Origin: Consotaella salsifontis
GTDB taxonomy: Bacteria > Pseudomonadota > Alphaproteobacteria > Rhizobiales > Rhizobiaceae
Reading direction: 5' to 3'
Length of the DNA stretch: 64,000 nucleotides
Assembly (NCBI RefSeq): GCF_900167365.1
Contig: NZ_FUXL01000020.1
Location: forward strand, 1-64,000
Shown here: piece after piece, positions 39,169-40,662 of the stretch
How positions within the stretch are numbered: the first letter of the stretch is position 1
Layout: the number at the start of each line of letters is the position of its first letter
The notes under the pieces: generated by a model
What the model saw: the letters and a program-made list of their open reading frames with translations, nothing else
What the model was told of the DNA's origin: nothing
The model's database searches: none
Position numbers and translations under genes: made by a program

Positions 39169-40662
39169 ATGGACGACGGATACCGCGGGCTGAGGCTGTT
39201 CAACACCATGACCCGGACCAAGGAGGAGTTTCGCCCTCTGGACTGGCAGACCTCCGGCAAGCCGGAAGCCGAGCGCCGCGTGACGATGTATGTCTGCGGG
39301 CCGACCGTCTACGACTACGCCCATATCGGCAATGCCCGGCCCGTCGTCGTGTTCGACGTGCTCTTTCGGCTCCTGCGCCACCTCTATGGCGCCGATCATG
39401 TCGCCTATGCGCGCAACATCACCGACGTCGACGACAAGATCAACGCACGGGCGGCGCGCGACTATCCCGACCTTCCGCTCAACGAGGCGATCGCCAAGGT
39501 GACGTCGGCCACCGCCGAGCAGTTTCATAAGGATATCGCGGCACTCGGCGCACTGCCGCCGACCATCGAACCCCGGGCGACCGACCACATCGCCGGAATG
39601 CGTGCGATGATCGACAAGCTGGTCGAGAACGGCCATGCCTATGTCGCCGAGGGGCACGTGCTCTTCCACACGCCGTCGATGGCCGATTACGGCCAGTTGT
39701 CCCGGCGCTCGCTCGACGAGATGATCGCGGGCGCGCGGATCGAAGTGGCGAGTTACAAGAAGGACCCCTCGGATTTCGTGCTGTGGAAGCCTTCTTCCGA
39801 AGGTGAGCCCGGCTGGCCGTCGCCGGCCGGCATCGAGGGGCTTGGCCGCCCCGGTTGGCATATCGAGTGCTCGGCCATGAGCGCGGAGCATCTCGGCCCC
39901 GTCATCGATATCCACGGCGGCGGGCTTGATCTCATCTTCCCCCACCACGAGAACGAGATCGCCCAGTCGCGCTGCGCGCACGACACCGAGAGGATGGCCC
40001 AGGTCTGGATGCACAACGGCTATCTCCAGGTCGAAGGTCGCAAGATGTCGAAATCGGAAGGGAATTTCGTCACGATTGATGATGTGCTTCGAAAGCCCGT
40101 TCCTGCGCTCGTTGGGTTGAATGACGGCTCTACGCACGAAAAATATAGAAGAGCCTGGAACGGTCGAGTCGCACGGCTCGTGATGTTAATGACGCACTAC
40201 CGTCAGCCGTTGGATTGGACAGACCGACAATTTTATCAGGCCTATAACGAGCTTCTAAGCTGGCATGATATTCTAGCTTTGCATAGTTATGACCATTCGG
40301 TTGAGCATGAATATGCGGACGGATTTATAGATGCGCTTTGCGATGATTTAAATATATCTGATGCAATTACAATTCTTCGTCGGCTGTATAAGGAGGGGGT
40401 TTACTGGGAGCTTGGGGCGGGCATGAAATTACTTGGGCTTTTTGACCCAGGCTTTCTCGATTGGGATTCCATTATGGTCGTCCCTGTCGATCCCGAGTTT
40501 CTCGAGAAACAGATCTCCCAACGGCTGGACTTCATCAAGGCGAAGAACTGGGCCGAGGCCGATCGCATTCGCGACGAACTTCAGGCCAAGGGCATCCAGC
40601 TCAAGGACGGCAAGGACCCGGCGACGGGCGAGCGCGTAACGACGTGGGAGGTCAAACGTTGA
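39169..40662 (+). CDS. cysS: Cysteinyl-tRNA synthetase (contains a low-GC segment)
   Basis: The 497-residue class I synthetase charges tRNA-Cys. [15 protein letters not shown] includes the HIGH-type motif and the first zinc Cys, other zinc ligands are in HIECSAMS and [10 protein letters not shown], and the KMSKS loop is in [11 protein letters not shown]. The start is ATG 39169 with AGGAGAG five bases upstream; the frame extends 40 codons further. Bases about 40021-40500 (after KMSKS, most of the anticodon-binding helical domain) are about 47 % GC by my count, against 66 % in the 180 bases before and 60 % in the 120 after, with AT-ending codons. Frame and motifs stay intact, so it is probably functional but mosaic. 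Confidence 0.95.

Follow-up and report, generated by a model that had tools for sequence, protein, structure and literature searches.

A low-G+C segment of probable foreign origin inside the cysteinyl-tRNA synthetase gene of Consotaella salsifontis

Part of the gene for cysteinyl-tRNA synthetase (CysRS; cysS, 497 aa, 39169..40662, forward strand as for all features below; Pfam tRNA-synt_1e, E 1.2e-105) has, to judge from its sequence, almost certainly been replaced by foreign DNA. The gene lies in the 64,000-nucleotide stretch analysed here (the window), which belongs to the genome designated G000; other G- numbers denote genomes, and L- numbers the loci or sequences compared. Its low-GC block is very probably a segment of an imported allele, which would make the enzyme a chimera formed by intragenic recombination. 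An earlier note on the window had proposed in-gene recombination with foreign DNA, and that proposal is upheld by an unalignable internal segment between orthologous flanks, by opposed trees, by a step in synonymous divergence and by a drop in G+C. Its view of a single event has to give way, with the DALR exchange in the window being one among several in the bacterial family.

The segment, its composition and its flanks

The GC counts from which the proposal set out are right on recount, with 228 of 480 bases in 40021-40500 and 19 of 60 in the trough at 40321-40380, compared with 119 of 180 just upstream and 72 of 120 just downstream. Of all 480-bp windows in the 64 kb, 40042-40521 has the least GC, 47.1% (mean 63.9%, sd 3.4%). 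GC at third codon positions (GC3), taken in steps of 20 codons, lies between 0.75 and 1.00 in codons 1-280, between 0.20 and 0.70 in codons 281-440 and at 0.78-0.80 thereafter, and for the block as a whole is 0.49 versus 0.85 for the catalytic part; the synonymous A and T endings remarked on earlier set in within the KMSKS loop, near 40033. Across 409,489 bases of the host genome (20 fetched stretches plus the window), 480-bp windows of at most 50% GC occur in four places, the other three being L303 18841-19590 (47.3%), L307 4651-5190 (49.8%) and a 1.8-kb contig with a minimum of 0%; leaving out that contig, L303 18841-19590 is the sole other place reaching 47.5%. Within the window, the next-lowest places are 18742-19221 (51.5%) and 4405-4884 (52.5%).

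The reading frame is, as had been claimed, kept open through the block and is intact across all 497 codons. Searches of the host's own genome by DNA and by protein each gave a single cysS match, that at 39169-40662, with no other found, and tRNA-Cys likewise gave one match. The native 5' part (39169..40076, 83% nucleotide identity to the relative G053) comprises the catalytic domain through the KMSKS loop, with the class I (C) catalytic domain PF01406 scoring 353.6 bits over residues 32-355 and KMSKS, which we take to be the signature motif of cysteinyl-tRNA synthetase, at residues 292-296. The putatively replaced, AT-rich segment (40077..40521) holds a long linker (residues ~311-330, 40099..40158), the hallmark of what is termed here the long type and a gap in the short-type rows displayed in the alignment, followed by the DALR helical bundle (residues 332-421, 40162..40431), delimited by predicted helices. 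Beyond it come the retained C-terminal CysS_C anticodon-binding domain (residues 450-483, 40516..40617; PF23493, 24.6 bits versus a cut-off of 23) and an overlapping downstream ORF (40659..41612) with a presumed TTG start, which we take to be alpha/beta-hydrolase-like.

The predicted structure of the enzyme has a mean pLDDT of 88.2, its model helices at 332-340, 352-371, 386-391, 396-409 and 412-421 reaching 90-97 per ten residues, with low-confidence linkers at ~311-330 (54-55 per ten residues) and ~431-440. PF09190 (DALR_2) is matched at residues 386-409 with 17.1 bits, under its cut-off of 22. Among PDB structures the model is matched best by 1u0b_B and 1li5_A, E. coli CysRS, which (as 1u0b/1li5, with tRNA-Cys) is the same enzyme with the same overall fold (TM-score 0.74 by query length), although the long linker falls in an alignment gap and the DALR region aligns weakly.

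A search with the window CysRS matched 293 of 297 genomes, and 60 genes were taken from the upper part of the best places listed; G053 is the best-scoring relative found, with 71% identity over the match. Thirty-nine window genes match within 140 kb of G053, their order being kept through cysS. At the DNA level cysS aligns with G053 at 83% up to nt 908, gives no blastn alignment over nt 909-1353, and aligns again at 79% from nt 1354 to nt 2435 counted from its start, i.e. into the downstream ORF. Because nt 909-1353 are unalignable, the replaced segment is placed at ~40077-40521, the outer limits being ~40033-40522. Protein identity to G053 is 83% over residues 8-300, 40% over 306-365, 25% over 366-450 and 81% over 451-497, and the long linker is absent from G053. 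As to the same low-GC block being present in close relatives, G053 and G235 both have a short, GC-rich one instead. The block does begin near KMSKS, as placed earlier, and it holds the linker and DALR bundle, but CysS_C lies outside it; similarly, of the tRNA-recognition half said to have been swapped, the linker and DALR bundle appear foreign whereas the CysS_C domain is retained.

Synonymous divergence (dS) from G053 is 0.61 in the catalytic part and cannot be computed for the block, as saturation would lead one to expect. The C-terminal 47 codons have a dS of 1.29, which exceeds the catalytic value; their native origin is therefore less certain than that of the catalytic part, and the right-edge step is the weaker one. 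The regional drop against G053 is 0.45 for cysS, the largest of 31 genes measured, with two others at 0.43 and 0.41. A chimeric contig from faulty assembly or binning would be conceivable in a draft genome of 33 contigs, but hardly deserves credence given the open frame, the confident fold, boundaries at domain edges, syntenic flanks and an apparently independent equal event in G700 (below).

Opposed trees and candidate donors

Trees of the separate parts of the gene, suggested earlier as a check, conflict in where flank (catalytic) and block are placed. In the catalytic-domain tree the window groups with G053 (support 84) and G235 (98), and forcing its catalytic part together with eight owners of the long type is rejected (AU p 1.9e-9). 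The rpoB tree, built for 29 of 30 genomes with G189 left out on account of its split rpoB, puts the host genome with G053 (81), and forcing it with seven long-type owners is rejected there too (AU p 2.6e-75). In block trees the window joins the long-linker type, with support of 99 in one and 100/100 in a tree of 34 rows, from which eight of 42 (L113, L137, L158, L152, L135, L163, L155 and L170) had been left out by the boundary pattern applied; holding the block with those of G053 and G235 is rejected (AU p 0.0017). The catalytic tree is itself not wholly a species tree, because G235 stands beside G053 in it and with G094 in rpoB. The sequence concerned is L113, the cysS of G235, whose catalytic part goes with G053 and the window (98) though rpoB puts its genome with G094 (86), and this catalytic part may itself have been transferred.

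No close donor was found among 394 genomes of the bacterial family, the best-scoring block matches being 44-45% identical in amino acids, and no whole long type was among the matches listed from 385 genomes of the class, where rows start at model position at least 17. With no close donor, the direction of transfer rests on G+C, the linker and the long-branch trees. Permutation tests on triplets with nine candidate donor-side sequences gave 1, 6, 29, 42, 176, 180, 245, 318 and 3674 of 5000 permutations as high, i.e. four of the nine under 50 of 5000, four between 176 and 318, and one, L128, with no signal, an unevenness due to the distance of the candidates. Comparable tests on parallel cases gave 0, 0, 0 and (L004) 263 of 5000. 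The donor was presumably of lower GC and outside the sampled genomes.

Donors of other kinds were also considered. A phmmer comparison of 19 of 22 IMG/VR CysRS loci with 17 chosen block tails yielded no close viral donor, the best viral match (E 2e-9) being to an ordinary block, and by whole-protein tblastn no record exceeded 60% identity among 624 plasmid and 19 phage records. A viral or plasmid source was set aside for want of a close match in these collections.

The course of events would be as follows. DNA of a relative carrying the long-linker DALR type would enter the cell and recombine, probably homologously, at conserved flanks, on the left KMSKS/GNFVTI and on the right a conserved region of 17 residues, the anchors being the KMSKS loop and a 10-residue region of the C-terminus. 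About 445 bp would thereby be replaced, leaving native catalytic and C-terminal domains around a foreign linker and DALR bundle. As the domain between the anchors varies in both sequence and length, incoming alleles bring a different DALR bundle. The chimeric CysRS is presumably functional and would charge tRNA-Cys, since the catalytic domain, CysS_C and the tRNA identity elements are native and only this one cysS was found.

Exchange in related genomes and in control genes

A comparable case is that of G700, in the genus g58 and thus of a genus other than that of the window, whose long-type block has a GC3 of 0.58 versus 0.89 in the catalytic part and a left boundary that, like that of the window, lies within a few codons of GNFVTI. 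Identity of its DNA to that of its congener G152 is ~85% on both sides of the block, and holding the block with those of two congeners is rejected (p 0.0003); on the sequence evidence, G700 took up its long-type block independently of the window genome. Four DALR types are found on one scaffold in this genus (L114/L115; L123; L150/L407; L405).

Another pair is G191 and G119, with near-identical rpoB (branches 0.011 and 0) and argS (1.00), and CysRS proteins that are 97% identical in the catalytic part versus 37% in the remainder of the block. The import in G191 runs from the donor block through the C-terminus, a repeat and a DUF559 gene (PF04480) to a 41-bp relic of the host's former cysS 3' end. 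The nearest relative of its block is that of G275; keeping it with the block of G119 is rejected (p 0.0001), as is a tree that unites G191 with G275 in the catalytic part (p 1.3e-58). In 16 cysS regions searched, DUF559 lies behind cysS in G191, G275, G066 and G262 and is absent in G119, so donor context travelled together with the G191 block. The duplicated 3' end had raised the possibility of a mobile element integrated into cysS, but alignment with G119 resumes at the relic and import by recombination is therefore the simpler reading. The DUF559 gene at L326:11553-11903 follows a palindromic repeat, directly behind cysS in four of the 16 regions. Elsewhere in these genomes, the argS genes of G191 and G119 (L221, L220) show a GC3 dip of ~0.21 across 100 codons close to the 3' end, possibly an older import.

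A further shared block links G057 and G020, members of different genera (95 and 100/97 in two trees), and the grouping of their catalytic parts is rejected (p 0.0024); a tree that keeps the G057 block (L123) with that of its congener G216 (L150) cannot be rejected (p 0.19). When ten block clusters are mapped on a catalytic tree of 81 sequences from the family, 18 changes are required (minimum 9; 16 singletons uncounted), versus 41.0 on average when block labels are shuffled, and blocks thus still largely follow the catalytic tree. The extremes of length are L012 (G022) and L030 (G039), with DALR regions of 204 and 186 residues (others 114-160) and low GC3 there.

Long types occupy a single large section of the family, with 20 of the 81 rows falling in one cluster, and in the block tree G000 and G700 branch outside the remaining long types. 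Both features would suit the idea that the long-linker block is an old family form kept by these two genomes and replaced elsewhere. This is nevertheless very unlikely: loss or replacement would be required in many lineages around G000 and G700, and a block retained from an ancestor would be expected to have host-like composition, contrary to the GC3 steps of both genomes.

Pairwise synonymous divergence was computed for 152 pairs prefiltered by catalytic length and identity. Among the 14 pairs with catalytic identity of ~95% or more, 12 have a block dS of 0.09-0.76 and a catalytic dS of 0.11-0.59, whereas L130/L133 and L010/L154 have block values of 3.19 and 1.85 versus catalytic ones of 0.34 and 0.56 and are, on this sequence criterion, to be read as swaps. 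In each of the 12 unswapped pairs dN/dS is higher in the block (0.07-0.24) than in the catalytic part (0.02-0.07), which indicates purifying selection looser than that on the catalytic part; relaxed constraint fails as an explanation of the steps because it would speed up amino-acid replacement and leave synonymous change as it was.

These pairs bear on the view that the block is native but fast evolving, through weak constraint or positive selection with drift towards AT. In line with it, besides the higher dN/dS of the block in 12 of 12 unswapped close pairs, residues 366-450 are the part least conserved between the window and 108 other genes (at most 39% identity), and block GC3 is ~15 points or more under that of the catalytic part in 16 of the 108. 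Yet where the block diverges dS steps up too, whereas in unswapped pairs it is like that of the flanks; blocks of different genera group together, in conflict with both the rpoB and the catalytic trees; and the G191 block arrived with its donor's neighbouring gene, all of which makes a native origin highly improbable and argues for import. In a narrower sample (best 30 places; 39 of 41 genomes matched), GC3 of the block is ~15 points under the catalytic part in six of 29 loci besides the window.

Other synthetase genes served as controls in 30 genomes, with collapse defined as a worst 70-residue window under 40% identity in pairs at least 80% identical outside it. Regional collapse was found in 17 of 33 pairs for cysS and in none for argS (0/40), metG (0/77) or serS (0/96), and at a looser 70% cut on outside identity in 150/237, 0/254, 2/325 and 14/416, respectively, while a GC3 dip of at least 0.20 over 100 codons was present in 8/30 cysS, 2/30 argS, 0/30 metG and 0/30 serS genes; none of these counts are population rates because the 30-genome set was picked partly for its odd cysS genes.

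Recurrence, the tRNA partner and precedents

Why the same region should be exchanged repeatedly is a question posed by these cases, tolerance and an arms race being the two poles. Swaps presumably persist owing to loose constraint on the DALR bundle; such tolerance is the simplest reason for their recurrence, and mere tolerance is, on balance, probably the main one. Diversifying selection, in which an antagonist such as a toxin or a phage factor would target CysRS, alone or with tRNA-Cys, via DALR and swaps would permit escape, is unlikely though worth keeping in mind; it concerns the cause and is compatible with segment replacement. Consistent with it are the concentration of exchange in the DALR of CysRS, with none in argS, metG or serS at the same threshold, the four DALR types on one scaffold in g58, and the constancy of the tRNA-Cys anticodon arm. 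Against it, dN/dS is well below 1 in unswapped pairs, and tolerance together with conserved flanks suffices. We know of no antagonist that engages CysRS, and the papers listed on CysRS with resistance or toxins, taken by their titles and abstract openings, showed none. A more specific and unlikely version would have the DALR bundle as a moving target: bacteria would evade an antagonist, be it a phage protein, a competitor effector or a toxin acting on tRNA or synthetase, by drawing again and again on a common stock of alternative DALR cassettes, many of them AT-rich. If that were true, catalytic domain, anticodon reader and tRNA would stay fixed while DALR cassettes change.

Co-evolution with the anticodon arm and U73 of the partner tRNA was considered and rejected, since neither varies among the main tRNA-Cys genes of the 20 genomes examined, where the differences fall in the D-loop, variable loop and T-stem. 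U73 and the GCA anticodon are given as the chief determinants of cysteine identity in E. coli and yeast (PMC9976931). With the anticodon arm and U73 constant, swaps do not track known identity elements. Extra, clearly different tRNA-Cys genes lie away from the main copy in G191 (L296) and G185 (L297), possibly on mobile elements. Contig C13 of G057 carries two copies of the main tRNA-Cys motif, separated by 52 kb (L294, L298); of the two, ARAGORN called just L298 as a tRNA-Cys.

It is customary to regard essential aminoacyl-tRNA synthetases as complete units, whether in inheritance or in transfer. Mosaic genes arising by intragenic homologous recombination are known in bacteria, e.g. those for penicillin-binding proteins, and resemble the present case in having a foreign segment of a few hundred bp, native flanks, a kept frame and a step in divergence or composition. 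The difference is that the gene here is that of an essential synthetase and that the exchange, limited to a single structural domain, recurs in a family with no selecting agent known. In HsdS of type I restriction systems, target-recognition domains are exchanged and DNA specificity changes. Conserved flanks around a variable module traded between alleles are common to HsdS and CysRS, but the tRNA served by CysRS keeps its identity elements, and the swaps are therefore not expected to alter specificity.

Among the papers listed from the open literature, as judged by titles and abstract openings, none described a domain being exchanged repeatedly within cysS. The nearest precedent found is Salmonella plasmid pBT1, with a complete cysS that takes the place of the chromosomal one (PMC6333337). 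The likeness is that CysRS is exchanged by mobile DNA and a foreign version fills an essential function; there, however, a whole second gene is on a plasmid, and here a domain is replaced within the chromosomal gene. In PMC3218107, CysRS appears in a gene table that belongs to a section on phylogeny and recombination.

Repeated exchange of one internal tRNA-side domain, with the rest of CysRS and the tRNA identity elements constant, is unusual for a housekeeping enzyme. From a practical perspective, whole-gene cysS is unsafe as a phylogenetic marker in this bacterial family, and the natural set of chimeras is a means of learning the role of the DALR bundle in aminoacylation. Plasmid-borne cysS is common in enterics, Klebsiella accounting for 503 of the 624 matching records, with Salmonella and Citrobacter also represented and some records being chromosome-sized. 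Among phages, the 469-kb Sinorhizobium phage Phosso has its own CysRS (PV764938.1:169971-171290), 38% identical to that of the window.
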